From Nocardioides caldifontis (GTDB lineage Bacteria; Actinomycetota; Actinomycetes; Propionibacteriales; Nocardioidaceae): 64,000 nucleotides of DNA. The translations under genes and the position numbers were made by a program. The notes under the pieces were generated by a model. It saw only the letters and a list, made by a program, of their open reading frames with translations, had not been told where the DNA came from and did not search any database. The first letter of the stretch is position 1; each line of letters opens with the position of its first letter. The stretch spans positions 62,001 to 126,000 of the forward strand of contig NZ_ML701737.1 in assembly GCF_008087345.1 (NCBI RefSeq). Direction: 5' to 3'. This document shows, one piece after another, positions 15,730 through 54,053 of this stretch.

Positions 15730-16824
15730 TCAGCCGAGGTCGACGATCGCCGCGACCGGCCCTCCCCCGTCCGGGCCCTGGTGGGCAGCGGAGACGGAGA
15801 CGAACGCGGCCGGGTCACCGGTGACGGCGGCCGTCACGCCACCGACGCAGGCCTTGATCTGCCGGTGCCAGTGCACGTCGGAGTCGTCGAGCATCGCGTT
15901 GCGACGGCCCCGGACCATGCCGTCCTGCGACACCTCGCACTTGAGGAAGACGTTGACCAGCCGCCCGTCGAGGTCGGTGTGGTGCGGCCGCTCGGGGAGC
16001 TCGAGCCCGGCGGAGCGGATCGCCTCCCAGATGCCGTCCTGGTCCAACGCGTCCTTCATCACCGAGTGGCCGATGCGGTAGCGGCCGCCGACGCCGCGGG
16101 CGTTGCCGACGACGACGACCTGCGCCTGGTCCAGCTCGACACCGGAGGAGCACGACGCGACCGAGGAGAACAGCGAGCGGTCGTGCATGACGTCCTCGTC
16201 CGACGGCATCTCGATCTCGCCCAGCGCGACCGCGACGCCGAGCGCGGTGCACCCGTTGGAGAGGTCCATCGACTCGTGGGTGTGCTCGGTCCACACCGTC
16301 TTCCCGCGGCTCTTCGCGTCGCGGATGGTGTGGATGGTCAGCAGGGGGGTCTTGGTCTGCACGTAGTGCACGTCCGCCGGGTCGGTGATGCCGGCACGGG
16401 TCATCGCGACCCGCACCGCCTCGGCCACCTTGGTGATCATCGCGGTGCGGCCGATGTCCTCGGGCAGCAGCTGCTCGCTCATCGCGAAGCCGACGGTCAG
16501 CCGCAGCTCGTCGCTCGGCTCGGCGTCGGTCGTGGCGAAGATCGTGGCGTGCGGGCTGAGCACGCCGTCGGTGCCGCCCGACCACACGACCGGGATCTCC
16601 TGCACCTGCTGTGGATCGGCGCCCTTCTCGACGAGCACCTCGCGGAACGCGCGGTCCGCGATGATCCGGGTGTAGTCGTTGACCCCGCCGTTCCCCTCGG
16701 TCTTGCCGATGATCGCGATCACCCGGTCGGCCTGCATGACGCCGTCGTCGAGGAGCTTGGCCAGCTCGCTGGCGTCGGCGACGGAGTGGATCGGGACCTT
16801 GCGTACTTCGATCGCGGATGGCAC
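15730..16824 (-). CDS. Ring-opening amidohydrolase (barbiturase / cyanuric acid hydrolase family)
   Basis: A 364-residue enzyme, the normal family length. The GTG start at 16824 is preceded by GAGAGGA at a good distance. The family has three repeated units, each giving a Ser and a Lys at a shared active site. Here the lysines fit K41 ([12 protein letters not shown]), K158 (VQTKTP) and K295 (VFLKCEV). The serines are in [10 protein letters not shown] (residues 82-91), [11 protein letters not shown] (about 220-230) and [14 protein letters not shown] (about 342-355). Members open cyclic ureides: barbiturate to ureidomalonate, or cyanuric acid to carboxybiuret. It forms a pair with the upstream carbamate kinase (25 nt gap). 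That partner and the distant NCS2 permease and Mo-hydroxylase favour barbiturate, but specificity cannot be read with certainty. Confidence 0.88.
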
Positions 16825-16849
16825 GGGTATTCCTCTCGTTGACAACAAA

Positions 16850-17779
16850 TCAGGGGGTGACGCGGGTCCCTGCCGACCCGGTGACCGCCTCGCCCAGTCG
16901 GGCCAGTGAGGTGATGATGCCGGTCCCGCCACCCTCGGCGAAACGGGTCACGGCTTCCACCTTGGGGCCCATCGACCCCTCGGCGAACCGCTCGCGCGCG
17001 GCGACCGCCCGCATCTCGGCCGCCGGCACGGTGCCGAGCGGCCGGGCGTCCGGGCTCCCCCAGCCGATCATCACGTGGTCGACGTCGGTGGCGATCACCA
17101 GGAGGTCGGCCCGGATCCGCCGTGCGACGAGCGCCGCGGTGAGGTCCTTGTCGATGACCGCCTCCACGCCTTCGAGCCCGCCGTCGGCGTTCCGCACGGT
17201 GGGGATCCCGCCTCCTCCGGAGGCGACGACGAGGTACCCCTGGGCCAGCAGCGCGTCGGCGGCCGGGGCGTCGAGCGGCTCCTGCGGCTCCGGGGAGGCG
17301 ACGACCCGCCGCCAGCCCCTGCCGACCACCTCGACGTACGTCTCGCCGTGGTCGATGAGCGGTTGCGCGTCCTCGTGGGAGAGGTACCGCCCGATCGGCT
17401 TCGTGCGCCGCTCGAACGCGGGGTCGTCGGCCGCCACCAGCGTGCGGGAGACCACCGTCGCCACCGGCTTGCTCACCCCGCGCCGGGCGAGCGCCGCATC
17501 GAGGTAGTTCATGAACAGCATGCCGATGGTGGCCTGGGTCTGCGCCCCGCACCAGCTCAGCGGCACCGGCGGCACGACGGCCGCGGCGAGCTCGTTCTTC
17601 ACCAGGATGTTGCCGACCTGCGGCCCGTTGCCGTGCGTGAGCAGGAGGTCGTGCCCCTCGGCCGCGAGGTCGGCGATGGGCTCCGCCGCCGCTCGTACGG
17701 CCTCGTGCTGGTCCTCGGGCCGCGCCTTCCCGTCGGGCGCGGACATCGCGTTGCCACCGAGGGCGATCACGATCCGCAT
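16850..17779 (-). CDS. arcC: Carbamate kinase
   Basis: A 309-residue enzyme of the amino acid kinase fold. It starts [12 protein letters not shown], followed by [37 protein letters not shown] and GSMGPKVEA, all carbamate kinase motifs. It moves phosphate between carbamoyl phosphate and ADP; in catabolism it makes ATP plus carbamate. No ornithine carbamoyltransferase or arginine deiminase gene is nearby. Instead it precedes the ring-opening amidohydrolase in the same direction, and the window also has a FdrA/DUF1116/DUF2877 set known elsewhere to make carbamoyl phosphate. This context suggests ureide catabolism, not the arginine deiminase pathway. Confidence 0.93.
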
Positions 17780-38033: not shown

Positions 38034-38519
38034 ATGGACGGACCCGAGGGACTGCTGGTGGTAGGTGACGGGCCGGTGAGCGAGGCTTTGGTGGCGATGA
38101 CCGGGGTGCTCGGGTGGCGTCCGACGGTCGCCACCACGCTGCCCGAGGTGGAGGCGGCACTCCCCTCGGTCCGGGCCGTCGTGGTCACCAGCCACGACGA
38201 GGAGGTGGACGCCGCGGCGATCGCGCGGGCCCTGGACGCCGGCGTCGACTACCTCGGCGGGATGGGCTCCCGGCCCACTCAGGCACGTCGCCGTGCCTGG
38301 CTCCTCGACCACGGCGTGACCGAGGAGCGGCTCGCGTCGGTGCGCGGCCCGGCGGGGCTCGACATCGGCGCCGACGGCCCGGCCGAGATCGCGCTGTCGA
38401 TCCTGGCCGAGGCGCTCGCCGTGCTCCGCGGCGTCGAGGTGACCGGCGCGATCAGCGACCGCGACGGCCCGATCCACCCGGACAAGGCGCCCGGCGAGGC
38501 GTTCTGCCCGACGGGCTGA
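38034..38519 (+). CDS. XdhC C-terminal domain protein
   Basis: A 161-residue protein that has only the Rossmann-like C-terminal part of XdhC: VVVTSHDEEVD, YLGGMGSRPTQARRRAWLLDHG and GLDIGADGPAEIALSILAE. The usual N-terminal XdhC/CoxI domain is missing, and the short N-terminus LLVVGDGPVSEALVAM begins directly with the dinucleotide-fold strand. XdhC proteins help load sulfurated molybdenum cofactor into xanthine dehydrogenase-family enzymes. A Mo hydroxylase is encoded at 44.9-48.8 kb, so this may be its maturation factor. It converges on hyuB with no gap. Confidence 0.82.
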   Translation: MDGPEGLLVVGDGPVSEALVAMTGVLGWRPTVATTLPEVEAALPSVRAVVVTSHDEEVDAAAIARALDAGVDYLGGMGSRPTQARRRAWLLDHGVTEERLASVRGPAGLDIGADGPAEIALSILAEALAVLRGVEVTGAISDRDGPIHPDKAPGEAFCPTG

Positions 38520-40430: not shown

Positions 40431-42538
40431 CACGCCTCCTCAGCGACGGTCGAGACCACCAGGTTCCGGTGGCTGTCCACCCGGGCGGTGAACCCGGGGT
40501 GCAGCGGGACGGTGGAGCCGTACTCCTCCACGATCGCGGGACCGTGCACCACCTGTCCCGGCTGCAGGTCGGGACGCCACAGGACCGGCGTCGGGACGTG
40601 GCCGGCCGAGGCTTCGAAGCAGACCGGCCGCTCGCCGCGCGGCGTCGGAGCCGCTTCCCCGGTGGCCGGCTCGGCGGCCCGCAGCTCCGGGCGTCTGATC
40701 GGCCCGATGCCGGTCAGCCGGAGGTTGACCCACTCCACCTGCTGGCGGGGATCGGTCGCGAAGTCGTAGCCGTAGAGCGCCCGGTGCTCGTCGTGGAACG
40801 CCCGCGCGACCCCGTCGAGCACGTCGGAGGTGAGCGGCCCGTCCGGCACCGCCACCCGCACCTCGAACGCCTGCCCGTAGTAGCGGAGGTCGGCGCTCCG
40901 CACCAGCCGGTGCTCCTCGTCGTCGAACCCCTCACGCACGAGCGCCTCGGTGGCCTGGCCGGCGAGCTCGCCGTACACCTGCTCGAGGGTGGTGCCCTCG
41001 ACGTCGCGGTGGAGCCGGACGTAGGTCCGCACGTAGTCGTTCTTCACGTCGACCGTGAGCAGCCCGAACGCGGAGACGTTGCCCGGGTCCGGCGGCACGA
41101 GCACCGTCGGGATGCCGAGCACGTCCATCAGCCGGCAGAGCAGCAACGACCCCGAGCCGCCGAACGTGGTGAGCACGAAGTCGCGGACGTCGAGCCCGCG
41201 CTTCACGGTGACCTGGCGGAGCGCGTTGGCCTGGTTCCACGCGGAGATCTCGAGGACGCCGACGGCGCACTCCTCCGGTGTGATCGCGAGCTCCGCCGCG
41301 AGCCGTTCGACGCCCTCCCGGGCACGGTCGACGTCGAGCGGGATCTCGCCACCGAGGAGGTGAGGAGGGATCCGGCCGAGCACCACGTGCGCATCGGTGA
41401 CGGTGACCTCGGTGCCGCCCTTGGCGTAGCAGAGTGGTCCGGGGTCCGCGCCCGCCGAGCGGGGGCCCACCTTGAGGTTGCCCTCGGGCGAGAGCCACGC
41501 GACCGAGCCGCCACCCGCACCGACGGTGACGACGTCGATCATCGGGATCTTGCTCGGGTAGGCGCCCACGGTCCCCTCTGTCGTCAACGTGGGCTCGCCA
41601 CCGACGACGACCGCGACGTCCGTCGAGGTGCCGCCGCCGTCGCAGGTGAGGACTTGGTCGAAGCCGGCGACGTGCGCGATCATCGCCGCCCCGAGCGCCC
41701 CTGCGGCCGGCCCGGACAGGACGGTGGTGATCGGCTGGTGCACGACCTCGTCGGCGGAGAGCACTCCCCCGTTGGACTTCATGACGTGGAAGGGCACCTC
41801 ACCGACCTCGGCGGCCAGGCGCCGCTTGATGTTGCCGACGTAGCGGGAGAGTCGGGGCTTCACGGCGGCGTCCACGAGCGTGGTGACGGAGCGTTCGTAC
41901 TCGCGGTACTCACGCAGCACCTCGCTGGAGATCGAGACCACCGCCGCGGGGTGCTCCTCGGCGATGAGGTCGCGCATCCGCTGCTCGTGCGCGGGGTTGG
42001 CGTACGCGTGCAGGAAGCTGACGCCGAGCGTGGTGATGCCGCGCTCGCGGAACCACCGGGCGGTGCGGCGGGCGCCCTCCTCGTCGAGCGGGCGCAGCTC
42101 GGCCCCCGTGTGGTCCAGCCGCCCCTCGACGCCGCGGACCCGGTGGCGGGGCACGATGCGGTCGGGCTTCACCCAGAAGTAGGAGTTCCCGTAGCCGTCG
42201 GGGACGCTCTGCCGGGCGATCTCGAGCATCGCCTCGTACCCGGCGTTGGTGACGAAGCCGAGCCGCTCGACCTTGCCCTCGAGCAGCTGGTTGGTCGCGA
42301 CCGTCGTGCCGTGGCTGACGGAGGCGATGTGCTCGGCTGCCCGCGGCCCGTCGAGCCCCATGAGCCCGAGCACCTTGGCGATGCCGGTCATGAATCCGTC
42401 CGCGGGGTCGGCCGGGGTCGACGGTGTCTTCGTGGTGGTCGTCGCCCCGGTCGCCTCGTCGAAGGCCACGACGTCGGTGAACGTGCCGCCGGTGTCGATG
42501 CCGATCCGGATCGTCCGTCGCGGGTCCTGAGTCGTCAC
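40430..42538 (-). CDS. Hydantoinase A/oxoprolinase family protein (HyuA)
   Basis: A 702-residue HyuA-type ATP-binding subunit from GTG 42538. IRIGIDTGGTFTDVVAF is the phosphate-1 motif of the actin/hexokinase-like ATPase fold. SVSHGTTVATNQLLEG, SGPAAGALGAA, CDGGGTSTDVAVV (phosphate-2) and TFGGSGSLLLCRLMDVLGIPTVLVPPDPGNVSAFGLL follow. It uses ATP to activate a cyclic amide for ring opening or a ketone for carboxylation. It is the first gene of a two-gene operon with hyuB and is divergent from a small ORF at 42678. Confidence 0.9.
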   Translation of the reverse strand: MTTQDPRRTIRIGIDTGGTFTDVVAFDEATGATTTTKTPSTPADPADGFMTGIAKVLGLMGLDGPRAAEHIASVSHGTTVATNQLLEGKVERLGFVTNAGYEAMLEIARQSVPDGYGNSYFWVKPDRIVPRHRVRGVEGRLDHTGAELRPLDEEGARRTARWFRERGITTLGVSFLHAYANPAHEQRMRDLIAEEHPAAVVSISSEVLREYREYERSVTTLVDAAVKPRLSRYVGNIKRRLAAEVGEVPFHVMKSNGGVLSADEVVHQPITTVLSGPAAGALGAAMIAHVAGFDQVLTCDGGGTSTDVAVVVGGEPTLTTEGTVGAYPSKIPMIDVVTVGAGGGSVAWLSPEGNLKVGPRSAGADPGPLCYAKGGTEVTVTDAHVVLGRIPPHLLGGEIPLDVDRAREGVERLAAELAITPEECAVGVLEISAWNQANALRQVTVKRGLDVRDFVLTTFGGSGSLLLCRLMDVLGIPTVLVPPDPGNVSAFGLLTVDVKNDYVRTYVRLHRDVEGTTLEQVYGELAGQATEALVREGFDDEEHRLVRSADLRYYGQAFEVRVAVPDGPLTSDVLDGVARAFHDEHRALYGYDFATDPRQQVEWVNLRLTGIGPIRRPELRAAEPATGEAAPTPRGERPVCFEASAGHVPTPVLWRPDLQPGQVVHGPAIVEEYGSTVPLHPGFTARVDSHRNLVVSTVAEEA

Positions 42539-42935: not shown

Positions 42936-44345
42936 CTACAGCGGTGGGCGGCGGTCCCCGACCCGGGTGGCCTGCTCGAAGACCCACGCCACCTCGAGCA
43001 GCCGGCGCTCCTGGTTGTGCGGCGCGACGACCTGGATCCCCACCGGCAGCCCCTCGTCGGTGAACCCGGCCGGCACCGAGATCGCGGGACAGCCGGTGAC
43101 GGTCACGAAGTACGCCGACCGCATCCAGTCGAGATAGGTCTCCATCGGGCGTCCGGCGACCGTGGTCGGGAACTCCTGGTCGGCGGGGAACGGCGGCACC
43201 TGGCTCACCGGCAGCACGAGCACGTCGTGGTCGTCGAAGAACTCCACCATCCGCTGGGTCAGCGCGGTGCGCTGCCGGTAGCCGCGGGCGACGTCGGCGC
43301 CGGTCAGCGGCTCGCCCGCCCGGATGTTGTCGGCGAGGGACTGCTTGAACGCCGACGGGTGCTCGGCGAGCAGCGGCCCGAACACCGCCTGGAAGAGCCA
43401 GGCGCGCAAGGTGCGGAAGGTGTCCTCCGCCTCCGGCAGCGAGGGGTACGCCGGGACCACGGTCGCGCCCTCCGCCGCCAGCACGGCCCCCGCCGACTCG
43501 ACGACGGCGGCCACCTCGGGCTCGACCGCGAACGCGCCCCCAAGGTCCGTCGACAGCGCCACCCGGAGCCCCGCGAGCGAGCCGGCGAGCGGCGGTGCGA
43601 AGGTCCGGCCGGGGTCGCCGAGGGCGAGCGGGACCCGACGGTCCGGACCGGCGAGCACCGACAGCAGCAGCGCGACGTCGCCGACGGTGCGGGCGAGCGG
43701 CCCGCCGACCGAGAGCGTCTCCCACGCGTTGTCCGCCGGCCACGAGGGCACCCGGCCGAGCGAGGGGCGCAGCCCGACCACGTTGCAGAACGAGGCCGGG
43801 TTGCGCAGCGAGCCGCCCATGTCGCTGCCGTCCGCGAGCGGCACCATCCCCGACGCGAGCGCCGCGGCCGCGCCGCCCGACGAACCGCCCGCGGAGCGGG
43901 AGAGGTCGAAGGGGTTCAGCGTGGTCCCGAAGACGGTGTTGAACGTGTGCGACCCGGCGGCGAACTCGGGGGTGTTGCTCTTCCCGACGATGACCGCTCC
44001 CGCCGCCCGCACCCGCTCGACGAGGAGCTCGTCCCGGTCGGGGACGTGGTCGGCGAACAACGGTGAGCCGTAGGTGGTGCGCCACCCCGCGACCGCGTGG
44101 GTGTCCTTCACCGCGAACGGCAGCCCGTGCAGCGGTCCGACGGGAGCGCCCGACGCCAGCTGCTCGTCGGCGGAAGCCGCGGCGGCGCGGGCCCGGTCGG
44201 GGTCGAGCGAGACCAGTGCGTTCACCGACGGGTTGACCTGCTCGATCCGCGCGAGGTGCAGCTCGAGGAGCTCCCGGGCGGAGACCTCGCGGGCGCGGAC
44301 CGCCGCCGCCATGTCGACGGCGGACGACCAGTGGTCGAGGGTCAC
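42936..44345 (-). CDS. Amidase (amidase signature family)
   Basis: A 469-residue amidase signature enzyme from GTG 44345, which overlaps the coxG stop (GTGA). The catalytic Lys is in GLPFAVKDTHAVAG, the cis-Ser in the glycine-rich SAGGSSGGAAAALASGM region and the nucleophile Ser in GSDMGGSLRNPASFCNVVGLRPS. The family cleaves linear amides. As the last gene of the permease/Mo-hydroxylase operon it may act on an amide made from the oxidised ring, for example ureidomalonate or malonamate. This is inference from position. Confidence 0.9.
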   Translation of the reverse strand: MTLDHWSSAVDMAAAVRAREVSARELLELHLARIEQVNPSVNALVSLDPDRARAAAASADEQLASGAPVGPLHGLPFAVKDTHAVAGWRTTYGSPLFADHVPDRDELLVERVRAAGAVIVGKSNTPEFAAGSHTFNTVFGTTLNPFDLSRSAGGSSGGAAAALASGMVPLADGSDMGGSLRNPASFCNVVGLRPSLGRVPSWPADNAWETLSVGGPLARTVGDVALLLSVLAGPDRRVPLALGDPGRTFAPPLAGSLAGLRVALSTDLGGAFAVEPEVAAVVESAGAVLAAEGATVVPAYPSLPEAEDTFRTLRAWLFQAVFGPLLAEHPSAFKQSLADNIRAGEPLTGADVARGYRQRTALTQRMVEFFDDHDVLVLPVSQVPPFPADQEFPTTVAGRPMETYLDWMRSAYFVTVTGCPAISVPAGFTDEGLPVGIQVVAPHNQERRLLEVAWVFEQATRVGDRRPPL

Positions 44346-44974
44346 CGCCGTCGACCCAGCACGGCGCCGAGGAGCACCCCGAGGGAGACCAGCCCGGCGC
44401 CGACCGCGACACCGGCGAGGAACCTGGGCTCGGCCCCGGCCCGTGCCAGGGCCGGCGGTGCGGTGAAGACCTGTTGCGGTGCGGCCTCCTCGTGGGGCGC
44501 CGCGGCAGCGGCGGGGTGCGGCTGGGCTGCGCCGGTCATGACGTGCCGCTCCACCGCGGTGAAGAACTCGGTGGCCAGCCGCCGGGAGACCGACGCGAGC
44601 ATCCGCTGGCCGACCCCGCCGATCATCCCGCCGACGACGGTGTCCGCGTCGTACTGCAGGACGGTGAAACCGGTCGCCTCGTCCTCGGAGAACCGGACGT
44701 CGACGTCCGCGGCGATCGTCCCGGGAGCACCCGCGCCCTCGGCGGAGAGCCGCAGCGACCGGTGCTCGGTGAGGTCGGTGATCCTGCACGACCCGGTGTA
44801 GGTGCCCTTGATCGCGGCGATCCCGACGGTGACGGTCATCGCGTAGGCGTTCTCGCCCGTGGTCTCGAGCCGCTCGCACCCCGGGATCGTCGAGACCAGC
44901 ACCTGCGGGTCGAGCAGTGCGTCCCACACCTTCGGCAGCGGCGCCTGGAGGACCGCCTCGCCCGTGATCTTCAT
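44342..44974 (-). CDS. coxG: CoxG family SRPBCC protein with C-terminal membrane anchor
   Basis: A 210-residue protein. The SRPBCC domain starts MKITGEAVLQAPLPKVWDALLDPQVLVSTIPGCE, as in CoxG, and includes GVGQRMLASVSRRLATEFF. A Pro/Ala-rich linker follows, and the end holds FLAGVAVGAGLVSLGVLLGAVLG before a short basic tail, a single membrane anchor. CoxG binds quinone and helps anchor or couple the CO dehydrogenase-type enzyme to the membrane chain. It overlaps the Mo subunit by ATGA. Confidence 0.88.
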   Translation of the reverse strand: MKITGEAVLQAPLPKVWDALLDPQVLVSTIPGCERLETTGENAYAMTVTVGIAAIKGTYTGSCRITDLTEHRSLRLSAEGAGAPGTIAADVDVRFSEDEATGFTVLQYDADTVVGGMIGGVGQRMLASVSRRLATEFFTAVERHVMTGAAQPHPAAAAAPHEEAAPQQVFTAPPALARAGAEPRFLAGVAVGAGLVSLGVLLGAVLGRRR

Positions 44975-47421
44975 CGGCTCTCCTTGGTCTCGACAGGCTC
45001 GGACCTGGCGCTCTCGACCGACCCGGCGTTCTCGACCGACCCGGCGTTCTCGGCCGCCTTGCGTCGCAGGTCGTAGAGCTCCGACGGCGAGATCGGCATC
45101 CTCCGGATCGGGATCCCCTCCGCGTCCTCGATCGCCGACGCGAACAGCGCTGCCGACGGGATCACGCCGGCCTCCCCGGCCCCCTTGATCCCCAGGGGGT
45201 TCAGCGGCGACGGGGTCTCGAGGTGGTCGACTTCGATGCGCTCGGGGACCTCGGTGACGTAGGGCATCAGGAAGTCCATGAACGAGGCGTTGAGCAGCTG
45301 CCCGCTCTCGTCGTACGCCATCCGCTCGTAGAGCGCGCCGCCCACCCCCTGCGCGACCCCGCCGTGGATCTGCCCCTCGACGATCATCGGGTTCACCAGC
45401 GTCCCGCAGTCGTGGACGACGGCGTACCTGAGGATCTTGACCTCCGCGGTGTCCGGGTCGGTCTCCACGACGACCGCGTGCATCCCGGCGGCGAAGGTCG
45501 ACCGCTCCGGCGAGTAGAAGTCGCGCCCCTCCAACCCGGGCTCGTCGTCCTCCTCCACGGGCGGCTTGTCGGGGTTGCCGACGGTGAACTGCGTGGCCAG
45601 CTTCGACGCCTCGTCGAAGGCGTAGCGGAGCGGGTTGGAGAGCACCGCGACGGTGCCGAGCGCGAGCCGCGACGCCGGCGCCCCGCGGACCTGCACGTGA
45701 CCGTCGACGATCTCGAGGTCCTCCTCCGCCGCCTCGAGCGCGTCGGCCGCGATGCGCAGCGCCTTCGCCTTCACCTGGCGGGCCGCCAGCGCCACGGCGG
45801 AGCCGCTCATCACCGCGGCGCGGGAGGCGAAGGTGCCCACGGCGTAGCCCATCCGCCGGGTGTCGCCGGACGTCACCTCGACGTCTTCGAACGGGACGCC
45901 CAGCTCGTCGGCGACGATCTGGGCGAACGCCGTGCGGTGCCCCTGCCCCTGCGACGTCAGCCCGATCGCGACCTTCACCTTGCCGGTCGTCTCGACGTTG
46001 ATGTGCGCGCCCTCGTAGGGGCCGACCCCGGTCCCCTCGACGTAGCAGGCCAGCCCGATCCCGACCCGACGCCCTTCGCGCCGGGCTTCTTGTCGAACAG
46101 ACTCGAAGTCGTCCCACCCGACCAGCGCCTTGAGCTTGTCGAGCAGCTGTGGGTAGTCGCCGGAGTCGTAGACCAGCGGGCGGCCGTCCTGGAACGTCAT
46201 CCGCTGGTCGTAGGGGAACTCGTCGGGCTGGATGAAGTTGGCCGCGCGTACCTCTGCCCGGTCGCGGCCGAGGTACGCCGCGATCGCGTCCATCGTGCGC
46301 TCCATGAGGAAGACGCCCTGCGGCCGGCCGGCCCCGCGGTACGGCGTGACGATCACCGTGTTCGTGTAGAGCGACTCGAAGACGACCTTGTAGGCCTCGG
46401 GCTTGTAGGGGCCGAGCGCCTGCGTCGAGGTGATGATCGGGACGATGAGCCCGTAGGGGATGTAGGCGCCGTGGTCGTGCCACAGCTGCACCGACATCCC
46501 GAGCAGCCGGCCCTCGTCGTCGAACCCGACGTCGACGTGCTGGAGCTGGCCCCGCTCGTGGGCACTGGAGACGAAGTGCTCGCGGCGGTCCTCGGTGAAC
46601 TTCACCGGACGGCCCAGCGCCATCGCCGCCATCGGCACCAGCACCTCCTCCGGCCACGGGTGCACGATCTTGACGCCGAAACCGCCGCCCACGTCCGGGG
46701 TGATCACGTCGACCTGGCCGAGGTCGAGCCCCAGCTTCGTCGCCACCGCCGCCCGGACCCCCGTCGAGGTCTGCGTCGAGCTCCAGACCGTCAGCCGGCC
46801 GGCGTCGGGGTCCCAGCGCGCCACCGTCCCCCGTCCCTCGAGCGGGGTGCTGGCGGAGCGCTCGACCTCGAGGTCGAGGGAGAGCCGGTGGGGAGCGGCG
46901 GCGATCGCGGCGTCGGCGTCACCGGTCGCCTGCTCGAGCCGCGCCGCGACGTTGCCGGGGACGTCCTCGTGCACCAGGTGCTCGGCGCTGCGGGCGGCCT
47001 CGACCCCCACGACGGCGGGCAGCGGCTCGTAGGTCACCCGGATCCGTGACACCGCGTCCTCCGCGACGTAGCGGTCCTCGGCGACGACGAACGCGATCGC
47101 CTCGCCGACGTGGTTCACCTCGTCCTTCGCGAGGGCGTGCTGCGTGCGGCCGTGGGTCAGCGCCGGGTGCGGGATCAGCAGCGGCAGCGGCTCGGCCATC
47201 GGGCCGGTCAGGTCGTCGTAGGTCCACACCGCGACGACGCCGTCGACGTCGAGCACCGGGTCGACGTCGATCTCGACGATCCGCGCGTGGGCGTGCGGGC
47301 TCCGGAGCACCGCGACCTCCAGCGCCCCTTGTGCGAGGTCGTCGACGTAGCGCCCCTGTCCCCGCAGCAGCCGGTCGTCCTCGACCCGCTGGACCTTCTC
47401 GCCGAGCATCCGCGTGGTCAC
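44971..47421 (-). CDS. Xanthine dehydrogenase-family molybdopterin-binding subunit
   Basis: An 816-residue large subunit from GTG 47421. VITPDVGGGFGVKI is the first Moco-binding segment, and TPYRGAGRPQGVFLMER is the AYRGAGR-type active-site loop (form II, not the AYRCSFR loop of true aerobic CO dehydrogenase). LTSQGQGHRTAFAQIVADELG and NPLGIKGAGEAGVIPSAAL carry the active-site Glu region. It hydroxylates an aromatic or heterocyclic carbon with water. The C-terminal tail ENAGSVENAGSVESARSEPVETK is encoded by local duplications and the GAGCCTGTCGA repeat core, so the natural end has been extended by repeat DNA. Confidence 0.9.
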   Translation of the reverse strand: MTTRMLGEKVQRVEDDRLLRGQGRYVDDLAQGALEVAVLRSPHAHARIVEIDVDPVLDVDGVVAVWTYDDLTGPMAEPLPLLIPHPALTHGRTQHALAKDEVNHVGEAIAFVVAEDRYVAEDAVSRIRVTYEPLPAVVGVEAARSAEHLVHEDVPGNVAARLEQATGDADAAIAAAPHRLSLDLEVERSASTPLEGRGTVARWDPDAGRLTVWSSTQTSTGVRAAVATKLGLDLGQVDVITPDVGGGFGVKIVHPWPEEVLVPMAAMALGRPVKFTEDRREHFVSSAHERGQLQHVDVGFDDEGRLLGMSVQLWHDHGAYIPYGLIVPIITSTQALGPYKPEAYKVVFESLYTNTVIVTPYRGAGRPQGVFLMERTMDAIAAYLGRDRAEVRAANFIQPDEFPYDQRMTFQDGRPLVYDSGDYPQLLDKLKALVGWDDFESVRQEARREGRRVGIGLACYVEGTGVGPYEGAHINVETTGKVKVAIGLTSQGQGHRTAFAQIVADELGVPFEDVEVTSGDTRRMGYAVGTFASRAAVMSGSAVALAARQVKAKALRIAADALEAAEEDLEIVDGHVQVRGAPASRLALGTVAVLSNPLRYAFDEASKLATQFTVGNPDKPPVEEDDEPGLEGRDFYSPERSTFAAGMHAVVVETDPDTAEVKILRYAVVHDCGTLVNPMIVEGQIHGGVAQGVGGALYERMAYDESGQLLNASFMDFLMPYVTEVPERIEVDHLETPSPLNPLGIKGAGEAGVIPSAALFASAIEDAEGIPIRRMPISPSELYDLRRKAAENAGSVENAGSVESARSEPVETKESR
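44989..45054. repeat. Repeat-derived 3' end of the Mo-subunit gene
   Basis: TGGTCTCGACAGGCTC (reverse complement of the GAGCCTGTCGA repeat core of 23792-23845) is followed by two direct copies of CTCGACCGACCCGGCGTT. All lie within the last codons of the molybdenum subunit gene, in frame, and add a low-complexity tail. Confidence 0.7.
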
Positions 47422-47906
47422 GCGTCACCTCCACGCAGCTCCGCCGCCCGCAGGACCGAGGCGACGATGTTCTGGTAGCCCGTGCACCGGCACAGGTTCC
47501 CGGCGACCATCTCCCGCGCCTCCTCCGGCGTCGGGGACGGGTTCTCCTCCAGCCCCGCGGTGATCGTGGTGAGGAAGCCGGGGGTGCAGAAGCCGCACTG
47601 CAGGCCGTGGCACTCCTTGAACGCCTGCTGCACCGGGCCGAGCGAGCCGTCGGCGTCCGCGAGCCCTTCCACGGTGGTGATCTCGGCGTCGACGGCGGAC
47701 ACCGCGAGCACCAGGCAGGACCGCACCGGCCGGCCGTCCATCAGCACCGTGCAGGCGCCGCAGACCCCGTGCTCGCACCCGACGTGCGTCCCGGTCAGCC
47801 CGACGTCGTGGCGGAGGGCGTCGCTGAGCAGCCGCCGCGCGGGCACCTGCACGTCGTGCACGGTGCCGTTCACGTGCAGCCGCACGTCGTACCGCGTCTC
47901 CGTCAC
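47418..47906 (-). CDS. Mo-hydroxylase 2Fe-2S subunit
   Basis: A 162-residue iron-sulfur subunit from GTG 47906. The plant-type cluster ligands are C44, C49, C52 and C64 (GCEHGVCGACTVLMDGRPVRSC). The second, alpha-helical cluster has C104, C107, C139 and C141 (QCGFCTPGF and NLCRCTGYQN). It carries electrons from Moco to FAD. It has GTGA/ATGA-type 4-nt overlaps with both neighbours, as usual for these operons. Confidence 0.93.
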   Translation of the reverse strand: MTETRYDVRLHVNGTVHDVQVPARRLLSDALRHDVGLTGTHVGCEHGVCGACTVLMDGRPVRSCLVLAVSAVDAEITTVEGLADADGSLGPVQQAFKECHGLQCGFCTPGFLTTITAGLEENPSPTPEEAREMVAGNLCRCTGYQNIVASVLRAAELRGGDA

Positions 47907-48757
47907 CGGCCCTCCTCGTGCGCCTCGTCCCACGCCGACCGCAGCGCCCGGGCGGTGAGCACCCGGACGAGGTGCCGACGGTAGTCCGCCGAGGCGTGGA
48001 TGTCCGCCGGTGGATCGAGGCGGGTCAGCGCGAGCTCCGCCGCGTCCGCCACCGCGGCGTCGGTCGGGCCACCGGCGAGCTGCTCGGAGACGTCGACGGC
48101 GACGGGCACGTCGCAGACGGAGAAGTACGAGACCCGCGCGCCCTCGCCAGGCCGGACCACCGCCGCCACCCCGCACAGCGCGTAGTCGCCGTGCCGGCGC
48201 GCGACCTCCTCGACCGCCGTGCCGGCTCCGGCCGGCAGGGCCGGGAAGAACGCCTCGACCGCCACCTCGTCGGGGCGCAGCGAGGACTCCATCGGCCCGA
48301 CGAACAGCTCGCCGGCCGGGATCCTGCGTCGCCCGTCCACCGACGCCGCGGTCACGTGGCCCTCGGTCAGCGCGAGCACCGCGGGCATCTCCGCGGACGC
48401 GTCCGCGTGCACCACCGAGCCCACGGTGGTCCCCCGGTTGCGGATCGTGGCATGCGCGACGAGCCGCAACGCCTTGCGCAGCAAGGGCTGCACCCGGGCG
48501 GCCTCGTCGTCACCGAGGACGTCGGTGTGCCGGGCCAGCGCCCCGACCCGGACTCCGTCGTCGTCGGAGCGCACGTAGGCCAGGGGCCCGATCCCGTTGA
48601 TGTCGACCAGCAGCGCCGGGGATGCGAGCCGCATCGACAGCAACGGGACCAGGCTCTGGCCGCCGGCCAGCACCTTCGCGTCCGGGCTCGACGCGAGCGC
48701 CTCGAGCGCCTCGTCGAGGGAGCGCGGTCGGACGAGCTCGAAGGGTGCCGGCTTCAA
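47903..48757 (-). CDS. Mo-hydroxylase FAD-binding subunit
   Basis: A 284-residue FAD subunit, probably starting at TTG 48757 (LKPAPFELVRPRSLDEAL), with AGAGGGG 10 nt upstream and 4 nt after the permease stop. KVLAGGQSLVPLLSMRLASP is the first FAD loop, and HATIRNRGTTVGSVVHADASAEMP is the second. It passes electrons from the 2Fe-2S centres to the acceptor. The direct junction to the permease gene shows that permease and enzyme form one operon. Confidence 0.9.
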   Translation of the reverse strand: MKPAPFELVRPRSLDEALEALASSPDAKVLAGGQSLVPLLSMRLASPALLVDINGIGPLAYVRSDDDGVRVGALARHTDVLGDDEAARVQPLLRKALRLVAHATIRNRGTTVGSVVHADASAEMPAVLALTEGHVTAASVDGRRRIPAGELFVGPMESSLRPDEVAVEAFFPALPAGAGTAVEEVARRHGDYALCGVAAVVRPGEGARVSYFSVCDVPVAVDVSEQLAGGPTDAAVADAAELALTRLDPPADIHASADYRRHLVRVLTARALRSAWDEAHEEGR

Positions 48758-48761
48758 ACGT

Positions 48762-50189
48762 TCACTGCCCCTCTCGGTGCGACGTCGGACGTTCTGACGA
48801 GTCGGCTCCGGACGGGCCGACGATGAGCGCACCGCTCCGGTCCACGTCGTGCGTGCCGCCCTTGACCATGTGGAAGAACACGATGACGAGGATGGTGCCG
48901 AGCGCGATGCCACCGAGCTCGAAGTCGTCGGTGACCTCGAGGGTGACCCCGCCGATGCCGGCGATGATGCCCGCGGCGAGCCCGACGAGGTTGCGCGGGT
49001 TGCCGAAGTCGACGCCGTTCTCGACCCAGATCTTCGCGCCCACGAGGCCGATCATCCCGTAGAGCACGATCGTGATGCCGCCGAGCACGCCGCCCGGGGT
49101 GGCGTTGACGACCTGGCCGAACTTCGGGCAGAGCCCCAGCAGGATCGCCACGCCGGCCGCGAAGTAGTACGCCGCGGTGGAGTACACGCGCGTCGCGCCC
49201 ATGACACCGATGTTCTCGGCGTACGTCGTCGTCGGCGAGCCGCCGAACGCGCTGGCCAGGGCGGTCGCGAGGCCGTCCGCGCCGATCGCCCTCCCCATGT
49301 ACGGGTCGAGGTCGTCACCGGTCATCTCCGCGACCGCCTTCACGTGGCCGGTGTTCTCCGCGATCAGGGCGATGACGCCGGGGAGCACCAGCAGGATGAA
49401 CGTGAGCGAGAAGCTCGGCCCGTGCACCGCGTCGACGCCGTCGGCGAGCGTGCCGGACGGGAAGCCGATCCAGTCGGCCGCCTCGACGTTCGCCCAGCTG
49501 ACCCGGTCGTGCGGGACCGCCTCGCCGTTGCTGGTCGGGAGCACCGAGGTGATCTGCCCGAACAGCCCGTCGGCCACCCACGAGATGACGTAGCCGAAGA
49601 TCAGCGCGAGGAAGACCGCGATCCGGGACCAGAACCCCGGCAGCAGCACCGCGGCGGCGACCATGAACGCCGCGGTGAGCAGCGCGATCCACTGGTCCTG
49701 CGGCCAGTAGACCCCGGCCACGACGGGGGCGAGGTTGAAGCCGATCAGCATGACCACCGCGCCCGTCACCGCCGGCGGCAGGATCCGGTGGATCAGCCGC
49801 GACCCGCCGAAGTGCACGAGCAGGCCGACGAGCGCGAGCACGATGCCGGCGACCATGATCGCGCCGGTCACGTCGGCGGAGTCGCCGCCCTGCGCCCGGA
49901 TCGCGGCCACACCGGCCACGAACGAGGCGCTGGTGCCCAGGTAGCTCGGCACCCGGTTGTTGCAGATGAGCAGGAACAGGATCGTGCAGATCCCGGAGAA
50001 CATGATCGCGAGGTTCGCGTCGAGCCCCATGACGATCGGGAACACGAAGGTCGCCCCGAACATCGCGACGACGTGCTGGGCGCCGAGCCCCGCCGTACGG
50101 CCCCAGCTCAACCGCTCCATCGGACCGACCGCGGCTCCTGGGGGAGGTGTCTTGCCGTCGTAAACGACGTCCCACTTGAACATCGACAT
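48762..50189 (-). CDS. NCS2 family nucleobase (uracil/xanthine) permease
   Basis: A 475-residue membrane protein from ATG 50189 with AGGAG 7 nt upstream. It has the UraA/RutG type opening LGAQHVVAMFGATFVFPIVMGLD. LIAENTGHVKAVAEMTGDD holds the NCS2 substrate-site Glu of helix 8. FGGSPTTTYAENIGVMGATRVYS is the NCS2 signature around helix 10. The pattern is nearer to uracil than to urate/xanthine carriers, but this is a judgement by eye. It leads a six-gene operon (permease, FAD, 2Fe-2S, Mo, CoxG, amidase), so the likely Mo-enzyme substrate is a nucleobase. Confidence 0.88.
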   Translation of the reverse strand: MSMFKWDVVYDGKTPPPGAAVGPMERLSWGRTAGLGAQHVVAMFGATFVFPIVMGLDANLAIMFSGICTILFLLICNNRVPSYLGTSASFVAGVAAIRAQGGDSADVTGAIMVAGIVLALVGLLVHFGGSRLIHRILPPAVTGAVVMLIGFNLAPVVAGVYWPQDQWIALLTAAFMVAAAVLLPGFWSRIAVFLALIFGYVISWVADGLFGQITSVLPTSNGEAVPHDRVSWANVEAADWIGFPSGTLADGVDAVHGPSFSLTFILLVLPGVIALIAENTGHVKAVAEMTGDDLDPYMGRAIGADGLATALASAFGGSPTTTYAENIGVMGATRVYSTAAYYFAAGVAILLGLCPKFGQVVNATPGGVLGGITIVLYGMIGLVGAKIWVENGVDFGNPRNLVGLAAGIIAGIGGVTLEVTDDFELGGIALGTILVIVFFHMVKGGTHDVDRSGALIVGPSGADSSERPTSHREGQ

Positions 50190-50378: not shown

Positions 50379-51197
50379 GTGGCAGCGACGAACCAGGTTC
50401 CGATGACCTCCGTCGTGGGTTCGGCCTCGATCTGGGTCCTCGGTCGGGTGGCCGGTCCGCGGCGCCGTGGCCGTGTCCTGCACGTCGGCGACTCCGCGGT
50501 CTACCTCGACCTCGAGGGCACCTGTCTCGCCGTGCTCGGGGCGCGTGCCGTGCAGGTGCCGTGCGGGGTGCGGACCCAGCTCCCCACGCTCCCCGACATC
50601 GAGGCCGGTGCGGAGGTCGTCGTCGAGGACGGCTCGATCGTGCTCCCCGGCCTCGAGGTCATGGTCACCACTATCGTCGACACGACGGTCCCGGTCCTCG
50701 GCGCGGACACCGCCGCGTGGGGCGGCGAGGTGGTCGACGAGCTCCTCACCGACCGGCTCGACGCGGTCCGTGCCCAGGTGCCCGGGGCGGCGCTCGCCGC
50801 GCTCGCCGAGGGCGACGCCGGGAGCGTCCTGCAGCTGCTCGGACTCGGCCCGGGGCTGACGCCGCTCGGGGACGACGTGCTGTGCGGCTGGCTGGCCACC
50901 GCGGTCGCCAGCCGGCACCCTGCGCTCGCCGACGTCCGTGGCGCGGTCGGCGCGGCCGCGGTCGAGCGCACGACGACGCTGTCGGCCACGCTGCTCTCGT
51001 GCGCCTCACGCGGCGAGGGGCTCCCCGAGTTCCGGAGCCTGCTCGTCGGGGTCAACCAGCAGAACCGGGAGGTCGTCGAGCAGGCGCTCGAGCTGATGCT
51101 CCAGGTGGGCGAGACCTCCGGGGCCGGCAACCTGCTGGGCGCCCTCGTCGCGCTCCAGTCACCCTCGCTTCTCGCACCCCCTGCCGGAGACGTCTGA
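50379..51197 (+). CDS. DUF2877 protein (AllH/YlbF-like)
   Basis: A 272-residue protein from GTG 50379. The family signature is LLGLGPGLTPLGDDVLCGWLA (residues about 164-184), followed by TLSATLLSCASRGEGLPEF. In E. coli the DUF2877 protein AllH is part of the oxamate carbamoyltransferase complex AllFGH. It is the first gene of a three-gene operon with the FdrA-like and DUF1116 genes (10 nt gap, then ATGA overlap). Confidence 0.85.
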   Translation: MAATNQVPMTSVVGSASIWVLGRVAGPRRRGRVLHVGDSAVYLDLEGTCLAVLGARAVQVPCGVRTQLPTLPDIEAGAEVVVEDGSIVLPGLEVMVTTIVDTTVPVLGADTAAWGGEVVDELLTDRLDAVRAQVPGAALAALAEGDAGSVLQLLGLGPGLTPLGDDVLCGWLATAVASRHPALADVRGAVGAAAVERTTTLSATLLSCASRGEGLPEFRSLLVGVNQQNREVVEQALELMLQVGETSGAGNLLGALVALQSPSLLAPPAGDV

Positions 51198-51207: not shown

Positions 51208-52671
51208 GTGAGCCACACCCACGTCGAGCTGCGGGACGCGTACGCCGACTCCGTGGTGCTGCTCGAGGTGAGCAAGGCCGTGGCCGCCACCCCCGGGGTC
51301 CTCGACGCGCAGGTGGCGATGGGGACGCCGCTCAACGTCGAGGTGCTCACCGGCATGGGGTTCGAGGTGCCGCCCTGCTCCCCCAACACGATGGTGGTCG
51401 CGCTCCGGGTCGGCTCGGAGGAGGAGGTGCCGGCGGCGCTGGCCGCGGTCGACGCCGCCCTCGCCGCGGGACGACGCGACTCCTCCGGTTCCTCGGGGTC
51501 CGACGGCCCGTCGGCGGTCCTCCCCCGCACCACGGGCCGCGCCCTCAGGCGCACCGGCAGCACGCTGGCGCTCGTCTCGGTCCCCGGTGAGCACGCGACC
51601 GCCGAGGCGGTCGACGCGCTCGACGCCGGGGCCGACGTCCTCGTCTTCAGCGACAACGTGCCGGTCGAGCAGGAGGTCGCGCTCAAGCGGCTCGCGACCG
51701 AGCGCGGCCGGCTGGTGATGGGGCCTGACTGCGGCACCGCGGTCGTCGACGGCGTGGGGCTCGGTTTCGCCAACGTCGTGCCCCCGGGCGACGTGGCCCT
51801 CGTGGCCGCCTCGGGCACCGGCGCGCAGCAGCTGATGTGCCTGCTCGCCGCCGCGGGGGTGGGGGTCGGCGACGTGCTCGGCGTGGGCGGTCGCGACCTG
51901 TCCGAGGAGGTCGGTGGGCTCTCCACCCTCGAGGCGCTGCGCAGGCTCGACGCCGACCCAGGCGTACGCCGCATCGTGCTCGTGTCCAAGCCGCCCGCCC
52001 CGGCCGTCGCGGCCCGCGTCGAGGAGCACGCCGCCGGGCTCTCCACCCCGGTCGACCTCGCGCTCCTCGGCCCCGGCCGTCCGGACCTGACGGCGGTCGC
52101 GGAGTCGGTCGTGGCGGCCCTCGGCGGCACCGCCCCGACCTGGCCCGTCCGCGGCACGGCGCGCCCGGCGCGCGGCGGCCACCTCCGTGGGCTGTTCGTC
52201 GGCGGCACGCTCTGCGACGAGGCGATGATCATCGCGGCCGGCCGCCTCGGCCCGATCCGCAGCAACATCCCGCTCTCCCCCGAGCTCGCGCTCGGCCCCG
52301 ACCTCCAGTCGGACGGCCACCTGATGGTCGACTTCGGCGACGACCGGCTCACCCAGGGCCGGGCGCACCCGATGATCGACCCCACCCTCCGGCTCGAGCA
52401 GCTGGCCCGGTTCGGCGCCGACCCCGCCACCGGGGTGCTGCTGCTCGACGTGGTCCTCGGCCACGCGGCCGAGCCCGACCCCGCCGCGCTGCTCGCCCCG
52501 GCGATCGCGGCGGTCGACGTCCCGGTCGTGGTCGCCTGCGTCGGCACCACCGCGGACCCCCAGGGGCTCGACCGGCAGGCGGAGGCGCTGGCAGGGGCCG
52601 GCGCCGAGGTCCACCTCTCCAACGCCGCCGCGGCCCGGCGCGCGGCCGAGCTCGCAGGAGGTGCCGCATGA
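51208..52671 (+). CDS. fdrA: FdrA-like protein (AllF type, succinyl-CoA synthetase-alpha fold)
   Basis: A 487-residue protein from GTG 51208 behind GAGGAGG. The first part has an ACT-like or regulatory segment, then VLVFSDNVPVEQEVALKRLATERGRLVMGPDCGTAVVDGVGLGFANVV, and VALVAASGTGAQQLMCLLAAAGVGVGDVLGVGGRDL, the CoA-ligase-alpha Rossmann pattern kept in FdrA. The second half repeats a ligase-like domain (GLFVGGTLCDEAM). In E. coli FdrA (AllF) works with AllG and AllH in carbamoyl transfer. Neighbours give exactly that set. Confidence 0.87.
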   Translation: MSHTHVELRDAYADSVVLLEVSKAVAATPGVLDAQVAMGTPLNVEVLTGMGFEVPPCSPNTMVVALRVGSEEEVPAALAAVDAALAAGRRDSSGSSGSDGPSAVLPRTTGRALRRTGSTLALVSVPGEHATAEAVDALDAGADVLVFSDNVPVEQEVALKRLATERGRLVMGPDCGTAVVDGVGLGFANVVPPGDVALVAASGTGAQQLMCLLAAAGVGVGDVLGVGGRDLSEEVGGLSTLEALRRLDADPGVRRIVLVSKPPAPAVAARVEEHAAGLSTPVDLALLGPGRPDLTAVAESVVAALGGTAPTWPVRGTARPARGGHLRGLFVGGTLCDEAMIIAAGRLGPIRSNIPLSPELALGPDLQSDGHLMVDFGDDRLTQGRAHPMIDPTLRLEQLARFGADPATGVLLLDVVLGHAAEPDPAALLAPAIAAVDVPVVVACVGTTADPQGLDRQAEALAGAGAEVHLSNAAAARRAAELAGGAA

Positions 52672-54053
52672 GCACCGGCCCGATCGTCGCCGCCGGCGCC
52701 GACCTGTTCGCCACCGCCGTCGAGTCCCAAGGCGTCCCCGTCGAGCGCGTCGACTGGCGACCGCCGATGGAGGGCACCTCCGCCGACCTCGCCACCGTCC
52801 TCACCGACCCGCTCCGTGCCGACGCCAACCGGCGGGCCGTGGAGGCGGTGCTCGGTGTGCAGGCGGTGCTGGTCGACGTCGCGCCCGCGTCCGAGGTGCT
52901 CGGGCTCTCGAAGGGCGAGTTCCTGCACGCCGGCCCGCCGATCGGGTGGGAGCGCACCTCCGGCCCGCTCCGCGGCGCGCTGATGGGCGCCGCCGCCCTC
53001 GAGGGGCTGGTCGACGACCCGGAGGACGCAGCTGCCCTGTTCGAGGCCGGGTCGGTCACCTGGGAGCCGTGCCACCACCGCAGCGCCGTCGGTCCGATGG
53101 CCGGGGTGGTGTCGCCGTCGATGTGGATGTTCGTGATCGAGGACGCCGCGTCCGGGCGCCGCACGTACTGCTCGCTGAACGAGGGGCTCGGCAAGGTCCT
53201 CCGCTACGGCGCCTACGCCCCCGACGTGCTCGACCGGCTCCACTGGATGGCGGCGGTGCTCGGACCGGTGCTCCGCGACGCCGTACGCACGACGGGGCCG
53301 GTGGACGTCACCGCGATCCTCACCCAGATGCTCCAGATGGGCGACGAGGCGCACAACCGCAACCGGGCCGGCACGCTGATGCTGCTGCGCGACCTCTCCC
53401 CCGCGATGGTCTCCGGGCCGCACCCGTCCTCGGACGTCGCGGAGGCGCTGCGGTTCATCGGCGGCAACGACCACTTCTTCCTCAACCTCGCGATGCCGGC
53501 GTGCAAGCTCGCGCTCGACGCCGGGCGCGACGTCGAGGGGTCGACGATGGTCGTCGCGATGGCCCGCAACGGCACCGACTTCGGGATCCAGGTCTCCGGG
53601 ACCGGCGACGAGTGGTTCACCGGGCCGGCGCAGCTCGCGGACGGGCTGTTCCTGGGGTCCTACGGGCCCGACGACGCCAATCCCGACATCGGCGACTCGG
53701 CGATCACCGAGACCGCGGGGATCGGCGGGTTCGCGATGGCGACCGCGCCGGCGATCGTCCGGTTCGTCGGCGGCACCGTCCCCGACGCGCTGGCCACGAC
53801 CCGGCGGATGCACGAGATCACGCTCGCCGAGAACCCGCGCTGGTCGATCCCGGTGCTCGACTTCGCCGGCGCCCCTACGGGCATCGACGTCACCGCGGTC
53901 TGCCGGACCGGGATCCTGCCGCAGATCAACACCGGGATGGCCGGCCGCGTCGCCGGTGTCGGCCAGGTCGGAGCCGGCCTGGTGAACCCGCCGGCCGAGA
54001 TCTTCCCGAAGGCCCTCGCCGCCCTCGCCGCCCGTACCCGCTCCCGCGCCTGA
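52668..54053 (+). CDS. DUF1116 protein (AllG/YlbE-like)
   Basis: A 461-residue protein from ATG 52668 with AGGAGG 5-6 nt upstream and ATGA overlap with fdrA. VERVDWRPPMEG is the typical N-terminal block. ALMGAAALEGLVDDPEDAAALFEAGSVTWEPCHHRSAVGPMAGVVSPSMWMF carries the conserved CHH region. GTDFGIQVSGTGDEWFTGPAQLADGLFL and LDFAGAPTGIDVTAV follow. It is the core subunit of AllFGH-type carbamoyltransferase. Its stop is only 3 nt from the stop of the convergent alkyltransferase-like gene, the right edge of the accessory block. Confidence 0.88.
   Translation: MSTGPIVAAGADLFATAVESQGVPVERVDWRPPMEGTSADLATVLTDPLRADANRRAVEAVLGVQAVLVDVAPASEVLGLSKGEFLHAGPPIGWERTSGPLRGALMGAAALEGLVDDPEDAAALFEAGSVTWEPCHHRSAVGPMAGVVSPSMWMFVIEDAASGRRTYCSLNEGLGKVLRYGAYAPDVLDRLHWMAAVLGPVLRDAVRTTGPVDVTAILTQMLQMGDEAHNRNRAGTLMLLRDLSPAMVSGPHPSSDVAEALRFIGGNDHFFLNLAMPACKLALDAGRDVEGSTMVVAMARNGTDFGIQVSGTGDEWFTGPAQLADGLFLGSYGPDDANPDIGDSAITETAGIGGFAMATAPAIVRFVGGTVPDALATTRRMHEITLAENPRWSIPVLDFAGAPTGIDVTAVCRTGILPQINTGMAGRVAGVGQVGAGLVNPPAEIFPKALAALAARTRSRA

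Follow-up and report, generated by a model that had tools for sequence, protein, structure and literature searches.

Barbiturase, AllFGH-type carbamoyltransferase and carbamate kinase genes of Nocardioides caldifontis and a predicted phosphate-dependent variant of the oxidative pyrimidine pathway

The locus and its ring-opening enzyme

We analysed a 64,000-nucleotide stretch of the Nocardioides caldifontis genome (4.8 Mb in 33 contigs; contig NZ_ML701737.1, positions 62,001 to 126,000 of the forward strand; hereafter the window) which carries genes for a barbiturase-type ring-opening amidohydrolase of family PF09663 and a carbamate kinase (ArcC), an operon running from an NCS2 permease through a molybdenum (Mo) hydroxylase and CoxG to an amidase, and, divergently, the three subunits of an AllFGH-type carbamoyltransferase. 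These genes had been named in a first-pass annotation of the DNA and profile searches found each of them where it had been placed (Table 1), the list being incomplete in that it omitted HyuA, HyuB and a class III CoA-transferase. We consider it likely that these genes provide an oxidative pyrimidine pathway that cleaves an acylurea with phosphate and not with water, AllFGH converting ureidomalonate to malonamate and carbamoyl phosphate.

The permease through amidase genes form a contiguous minus-strand run, HyuA and HyuB coming some 400 bp later, and six adjacent pairs overlap by 4 bp (M/S, S/L, L/G and G/amidase, where M, S and L are the Mo-hydroxylase FAD, 2Fe-2S and large subunits and G is CoxG, plus HyuA/HyuB and AllF/AllG). 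The XdhC-type gene was matched in just 2 of 140 loci, and its membership of the cluster is therefore weak.

Table 1. Features of the window, with positions counted from its first nucleotide.
Feature	Position	Strand	Profile matches and remarks
Class III (CaiB-type) CoA-transferase, candidate malonate CoA-transferase	7592..8899	+	PF02515 378 bits
Barbiturase, ring-opening amidohydrolase	15730..16824	-	PF09663 480 bits, profile 1-358 of 358; TIGR02714 603 bits
Carbamate kinase, ArcC family	16850..17779	-	PF00696; NF009007; directly upstream of barbiturase
XdhC-type Mo-cofactor maturation protein, possible accessory	37803..38519	+	PF13478 102 bits
HyuB, hydantoinase B / oxoprolinase family	38520..40433	-	PF02538 460 bits
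HyuA, hydantoinase A / oxoprolinase family	40430..42538	-	PF01968 302 bits
Amidase-signature amidase, candidate malonamate amidase	42936..44345	-	PF01425 383 bits
CoxG-type accessory protein	44342..44974	-	PF06240 81 bits, cut-off 22
Mo-hydroxylase large subunit, candidate uracil dehydrogenase	44971..47421	-	MoCoBD domains
Mo-hydroxylase 2Fe-2S subunit	47418..47906	-	PF01799, PF00111
Mo-hydroxylase FAD subunit	47903..48757	-	PF00941, PF03450
NCS2 nucleobase permease, uracil-permease/RutG-like	48762..50189	-	PF00860 233 bits
AllH subunit, DUF2877	50379..51197	+	PF11392 83.5 bits, cut-off 25
AllF/FdrA subunit	51208..52671	+	PF00549
AllG subunit, DUF1116	52668..54053	+	PF06545 322 bits

The ring-opening enzyme matched the PDB sequence 5hwe ('Barbiturase') at 689 bits and the other six PDB sequences at no more than 327 bits. 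Over the 5hwe stretch, Rhodococcus erythropolis NBRC 15567 shows 100% identity, and 315 of 364 aligned residues (87%) are identical between the window protein and the R. erythropolis barbiturase, compared with 45–49% identity to three cyanuric acid hydrolases (CAHs). In the column of CAH Arg188 the TrzD, AtzD and Moorella CAHs have Arg, whereas the window and R. erythropolis proteins have Asn, as do 131 of the 136 PF09663 loci compared (the barbiturase subgroup residue is given as Gln in the part of PMC4051656 available, and the R. erythropolis sequence aligns as Asn here). The enzyme would be a CAH serving a pathway for s-triazines if the name of the equivalog model NF052395 (cyanuric acid amidohydrolase), which scores 475 bits on it over a cut-off of 360, were taken at face value, and an Aminobacter plasmid has TrzD itself next to FdrA, DUF1116 and ArcC. 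However, NF052395 also passes the R. erythropolis barbiturase (L180 10001–11104; 477.5 bits) and so is unable to separate the two enzymes, which means that automatic names of such proteins may mislead, and we regard this alternative as very improbable; we reject a CAH on the identities and the Arg/Asn column. The first-pass annotation had taken a preference for cyanuric acid as the result that would overturn its pathway, an objection that fails on present evidence, and barbiturate is the firmest of all the substrates predicted for the pathway.

A divergent PF09663 protein in genome G241 (L068, 5068–14734; G and L numbers are our handles for genomes and loci) is 36% identical and has Ser at the key column, with AllF, AllG and a tandem pair of carbamate kinase genes nearby. 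It appears to be a further kind of ring-opener tied to the AllF/AllG/ArcC module.

Linkage and co-occurrence in actinobacteria

We compared 80 named loci, the best-scoring of 561 for a Rhodococcus query and partly shared with the order sample described below. In 73 of them an ArcC gene lies on the same strand and no more than 300 bp upstream of the barbiturase gene, and the seven loci where it does not are five from Rhodococcus/Rhodococcoides, one from Arachnia (L197) and one from a Streptosporangiaceae metagenome-assembled genome (MAG; L254). We also read the regions around PF09663 genes in 20 genomes which we picked from the 75 in the order of N. caldifontis that have this family (18 of barbiturase type plus the divergent G241 and G249), and these provided 19 barbiturase-type clusters from 18 genomes, with the second, divergent copies L083, L084 and L097 excluded. 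HyuB was found with barbiturase in all 19 and ArcC in 18 (not G170), and the fetched stretches held the Mo-hydroxylase in 17 and the window-type amidase in 16 cases. AllG was on the barbiturase contig in 18 of the 19 (in G270 it is on another contig; the position for G189 was taken from the genome-wide AllG search and not from the fetched stretch). The usual gene order in these relatives is AllG-AllF-AllH in one direction and NCS2-CoxM-CoxS-CoxL-CoxG-amidase-HyuA-HyuB-(often an NmrA-like gene)-ArcC-barbiturase in the other, and the barbiturase–AllG distance is 10.6–40.6 kb with a median of 24 kb (tabulated by hand for the 65 of 74 order genomes in which a single contig carries the two genes; of the rest, eight have the genes on separate contigs and the divergent G241 was left out). 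The description of these genes in the first-pass annotation as dispersed is therefore correct for this genome and not for most of the relatives read, where they form one cluster which includes HyuAB; in the window, further genes fill the roughly 20 kb between ArcC (17.8 kb) and HyuB (38.5 kb).

Between the two halves, a block at 21240–31255 with genes for an aldehyde dehydrogenase, LigB dioxygenase, FAA hydrolase, C26 peptidase, luciferase-like monooxygenase, acetoacetate decarboxylase family protein, glutamine-synthetase-like protein and P450 resembles a separate aromatic/amine catabolic unit.

The linkage extends to the wider phylum, where we selected 15 of 22 genomes having both families because both genes were on one contig (the other seven are our own genome, G377 with the genes 44 kb apart, and G378, G389, G560, G590 and G617 with the genes on different contigs). 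Their barbiturases have 65–69% identity (85% in G354), AllF and AllG are no more than 11 kb from barbiturase in 13 clusters and at 17 and 28 kb in G367 and G354, and ArcC is present in 13 (not G595 or G570). In eight of these clusters the Mo-hydroxylase genes come after AllG in the same orientation; they are elsewhere in the cluster in two and missing from the stretch in five. A gene between barbiturase and ArcC was of NCS2 type in all three cases tested (L162, L164 and L172); it should be noted that our NCS2 counts in relatives are lower bounds as the query sequence was partly out of frame.

AllG co-occurs with PF09663. Among 293 genomes of the order PF09663 was present in 75, AllG in 86 and both in 74, so that AllG is found in 74 of 75 genomes with PF09663 against 12 of 218 without (Fisher p 2e-55, which is not a count of independent events since the genomes are related); the single exception, G249, has a divergent ring-opener with 33% identity. 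A survey of this kind had been suggested by the first-pass annotation, and the families do co-occur as it had anticipated. In a sample of 396 genomes from the phylum, PF09663 was present in 27, AllG in 49 and both in 22 (AllG in 22 of 27 compared with 27 of 369 others; Fisher p 4e-18). The five phylum genomes with PF09663 and no AllG are G342 and G483, whose ring-openers have the CAH Arg and 37–43% identity, G473, which has Asn at the key column in one alignment yet only 44% identity, and G484 and G588; the last two and G473 align otherwise at this column in a second alignment. As AllG is also found without PF09663 in 12 order and 27 phylum genomes, AllFGH must have other uses.

In an AllG tree of 85 tips (the window plus 84 distinct tblastn pieces from 112 after merging identical ones, pieces of fewer than 300 columns being dropped save that of Escherichia coli), the 69 barbiturase-labelled tips, among which the window's own copy is counted twice, form one clade with a support of 0.99. 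Second copies and the AllGs of E. coli and TrzD-linked loci fall outside this clade, to which the window AllG belongs. The sister group of the clade is made up of five genomes, none with PF09663, of which three (G324, G427 and G449; L277, L278 and L279) have CoxMSL-HyuA-HyuB-AllF-AllG runs, the contigs of the other two being short, and one run also holds amidase, AllH, CoxG and acyl-CoA ligase genes. This sister group is the main feature that our reading does not account for, and it makes any role given to HyuAB tentative. A PF04199 cyclase-family gene adjoins AllG in L277, and we do not claim the acyl-CoA ligase of L278 as a malonyl-CoA synthetase, as this was just its fifth-best model.

These data bear on an alternative in which AllFGH acts on oxalurate or another acylurea provided by the Mo-hydroxylase and HyuAB, e.g. 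from an oxidised hydantoin such as parabanate, and barbiturase is a parallel branch. HyuAB accompanies AllFG in three clusters of genomes without PF09663, HyuA is nearest to N-methylhydantoinase, and E. coli AllFGH, the one assayed case known, uses oxalurate/oxamate in the part of PMC11326118 available, all of which would suit this alternative. We nevertheless consider it unlikely, as AllG co-occurs with barbiturase, the barbiturase-linked AllGs form a clade of their own apart from E. coli AllG, and a C3 diacid would suit the neighbouring CoA-transferase and carboxyltransferase genes. Furthermore, among 28 barbiturase genomes (27 of the 80 named genomes plus our own) an AllD-family (Ldh_2) gene was over the cut-off in seven and allantoinase in 13, and our own genome has no AllD-family gene and a best allantoinase score of 299 under a cut-off of 358, on which basis we reject oxalurate from allantoin as a source in N. 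caldifontis.

The contrast with Rhodococcus and the predicted route

AllG was matched in 73 of 79 named barbiturase genomes (L241 was excluded, and matches were partial or broken in L196, L221, L228 and L258) and in 72 of 74 outside Rhodococcus. Among these 79 no AllG was found in L180–L183 (R. erythropolis, Rhodococcus IEGM 1409, Rhodococcoides fascians and Rhodococcus AW25M09, respectively) or in two MAGs of about 2.5 Mb (L216 and L248), and R. koreensis has it only as divergent copies of no more than 251 bits. The five Rhodococcus loci also differ from the window in that a different amidase follows barbiturase and their stretches show neither ArcC nor HyuAB (HyuB is within the flanks of 51 and HyuA of 41 of the 80 named loci, and in none of these five). 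The likeness to the R. erythropolis oxidative pyrimidine pathway is otherwise close, with a barbiturase of 87% identity and a locus (L180) of uracil phosphoribosyltransferase, barbiturase, amidase, aminotransferase, NCS2 and CoxMSLG genes; CoxM and NCS2 were seen in L182 and L183, the L181 stretch ends early, and CoA-transferase and carboxyltransferase types are found in L180–L183. In R. koreensis (L204) the stretch lacks all of the shared genes for Mo-hydroxylase, NCS2 and CoA-transferase. The uracil phosphoribosyltransferase gene (L180 9154–9864) is divergently oriented and adjoins the R. erythropolis barbiturase, which ties that locus to uracil, and it has relatives in L181 and L182 (3 of 140 loci).

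The amidase after the Rhodococcus barbiturase is plausibly a ureidomalonase, and the window amidase could have the same role, with AllFGH and carbamate kinase serving something else in the same regulon. A same-superfamily amidase follows barbiturase in 5/5 Rhodococcus loci and the window has a relative which is 42% identical to that of R. erythropolis. However, the Rhodococcus-type gene is not directly after the window barbiturase and its relative is 26 kb away, the two types form separate groups (63–79% identity within the window type, 76–100% within Rhodococcus and 39–44% between), ArcC adjoins barbiturase in 73 of 80 loci, and some clusters have no window-type amidase on the stretch read. 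Nor would released urea be of obvious use, as 24 of 29 genomes with AllG have no urease, and we think this alternative quite improbable. Urease alpha was found in 5/5 Rhodococcus and 5/29 genomes with AllG (one partial, L191; Fisher p 0.0009; the sample was 33 of the 80 named genomes plus our own), and not in the N. caldifontis genome. A similar division among enteric bacteria is noted in the part of PMC11326118 available.

The substrate of every step of the favoured phosphate-dependent route is predicted from the genes and families observed, their linkage and co-occurrence, and the Rhodococcus contrast. NCS2 would import uracil, the Mo-hydroxylase (MSL, with CoxG) would convert uracil to barbiturate, and barbiturase would open the barbiturate ring to give ureidomalonate; AllFGH would then act on ureidomalonate and phosphate as proposed above, carbamate kinase would use the carbamoyl phosphate to produce ATP, NH3 and CO2, the amidase (or HyuAB) would convert malonamate to malonate, and the class III CoA-transferase would take malonate onward through malonyl-CoA, as would an acetyl-CoA-carboxylase-type carboxyltransferase in a number of relatives.

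Individual proteins fit these roles to differing degrees. The window holds AllF, AllG and AllH subunits together by profile matches, with AllF matching 3dmy FdrA at 237 bits and AllG matching 3clq at 402 bits in the PDB, and the ArcC candidate passes the NF009007 carbamate kinase model (292 bits, cut-off 266). For the permease, the RutG model scored 339 bits, which is under its cut-off, and a uracil permease was the better PDB match (188 bits vs 44 for a uric acid-xanthine permease). The Mo-hydroxylase large subunit is 63% identical (tblastn) to one near the R. erythropolis barbiturase, and CoxG gave 38–66% tblastn matches beside CoxL in relatives. CoxL of aerobic CO dehydrogenase has an AYxCSFR motif; this is not present in the window or R. 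erythropolis proteins, where the active-site loop is PYRGAGR, and we reject CO dehydrogenase on this basis, though one is the second-nearest PDB entry. The window CoA-transferase is 60% identical to one near the R. erythropolis barbiturase. Relatives occur in 46 of the 80 named loci and the carboxyltransferase is found in 17 (including L180–L183), and the pair would fit a malonate to malonyl-CoA to acetyl-CoA sequence. No carboxyltransferase was found in the window, and the surroundings of a 62% copy on another contig of this genome (C1) were uninformative.

A number of observations weigh against the proposed route. The urease contrast sets one genus against many, and to our knowledge barbiturase in R. 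erythropolis is the only step of the pathway to have been assayed. Two models fall short, as AllF/FdrA scored 366 bits with NF004760 FdrA (cut-off 433) and the ArcC candidate 323.6 bits with TIGR00746 (cut-off 358). The Mo-hydroxylase is almost as near to CO dehydrogenase (8uem, 437 bits) as to quinoline 2-oxidoreductase (1t3q, 453 bits), and no malonyl-CoA synthetase (MatB) match was over the cut-off in our own genome, using a model which does not discriminate as sub-cut-off matches were also found in 12 of 14 control genomes. Linkage is imperfect: three of the 19 own-order clusters (G181, G214 and G270) have no window-type amidase on the fetched stretch, barbiturase and AllG are on different contigs in five phylum-sample genomes, in Phycicoccus elongatus (L242) about 2.1 Mb separates AllG from barbiturase, provided that contig C1 and the named contig are the same, and AllF was found in just 3/80 and AllG in 2/80 named loci, numbers which are so low because the flanks reach just 10 kb (by listed positions AllG/AllF are 26 kb from barbiturase in Janibacter L200). 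The sister-group stretches (G324, G427 and G449) have no ArcC and their genomes no PF09663, and AllFGH with HyuAB may therefore serve another ring. Finally, HyuAB has no clear step in the route. The nearest solved structure to HyuA is the N-methylhydantoinase 7hk5, the best NCBIfam model for HyuB is caprolactamase beta (under the cut-off), and studied members of these families use ATP; if HyuAB were the malonamate deamidase, the ATP gained would be spent.

An energy gain from the route is plausible but HyuAB could cancel it, and because the roles of HyuAB and the amidase are uncertain, the net yield is among the least certain parts of the proposal. The core of the first-pass annotation, in which the barbiturase product passes to AllFGH and carbamate kinase instead of to ureidomalonase, has strong support from the linkage, Rhodococcus contrast and urease pattern, though it had overlooked HyuAB and their possible cost in ATP. 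A conserved actinobacterial pathway variant is well supported by the genomics, with its chemistry predicted.

Related systems and significance

Oxalurate (-OOC-CO-NH-CO-NH2), ureidomalonate (-OOC-CH2-CO-NH-CO-NH2) and 1-carboxybiuret (-OOC-NH-CO-NH-CO-NH2) each have a terminal carbamoyl on the amide nitrogen of a carboxylate-bearing amide, and the last two are isosteres, as are barbiturate and cyanurate. From its chemistry, a shift of the carbamoyl to phosphate would leave oxamate, malonamate or allophanate, respectively. We lean slightly towards a broader proposal in which AllFGH would be a phosphorylase family for carboxylated acylureas working with ring-opening amidohydrolases and carbamate kinase, using ureidomalonate in actinobacteria and converting 1-carboxybiuret to allophanate and carbamoyl phosphate in TrzD-type operons carried by plasmids of Aminobacter and enterobacteria.

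Three of four plasmid records inspected have FdrA, DUF1116 and ArcC with a ring-opener. Aminobacter sp. SR38 pSR8 (L101 8972–14065) has FdrA-DUF1116-ring-opening amidohydrolase-ArcC-amidohydrolase-BMP/ABC-DUF2877, the ring-opening enzyme matching TrzD (5t13) at 100% of the aligned residues; Klebsiella quasipneumoniae (L286 2268–10064) has atzF upstream of FdrA-DUF1116-amidohydrolase-ArcC, with DUF2877 not on the stretch; and Serratia liquefaciens (L102 8909–16550) has amidohydrolase-NCS2-DUF2877-FdrA-DUF1116-ArcC-LysR, with the CAH Arg in its ring-opener. The fourth, from Citrobacter freundii CF2, has the amidohydrolase and NCS2 only on a stretch cut at the end of the circular record. Such runs could possibly provide an ATP-yielding cyanurate route via 1-carboxybiuret.

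The nearest known systems each share part of this arrangement. E. coli AllFGH-AllK of the anaerobic allantoin pathway has the same three subunits in an operon with carbamate kinase, and a K_M of 36.9 mM for oxamate is given in the part of PMC11326118 available; the window AllG is 45% identical and in another clade, and the window differs in having barbiturase and the Mo-hydroxylase and no allDCEB neighbours. The AtzDEFGH and BiuH cyanuric acid pathways have a homologous ring-opener with an isosteric ring-opened product, and use amidohydrolases and a decarboxylase (PMC6219798, as far as its available text goes) where a carbamoyltransferase and kinase are proposed here. Comammox Nitrospira have allFGHK beside triuret/biuret genes for acylurea catabolism; unlike the systems considered here, the available part of PMC12625717 reports no atzD and its authors read the genes as oxalurate degradation. 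This was also the one paper among the open-licence PMC papers searched to join 'cyanuric acid' with 'carbamate kinase', and none there has both 'barbiturase' and 'carbamate kinase' (subscription papers are mostly outside this collection and earlier print is possible). The main text of PMC11326118 does not contain 'barbitur', 'cyanuric' or 'ureidomalon'.

We know of the barbiturate pathway for pyrimidines from Rhodococcus and a few other bacteria only. If our proposal is correct, it would provide genes for such a pathway, including a candidate uracil dehydrogenase, and would widen the range of the recently assigned AllFGH enzyme to substrates other than oxalurate. The carbamoyl-phosphate-conserving route would then be the norm for actinobacteria that carry barbiturase and the release of urea, as in Rhodococcus, an exception, and there would be an additional cyanuric acid degradation route on mobile plasmids, giving ATP-yielding variants of both the barbiturate and cyanurate pathways.

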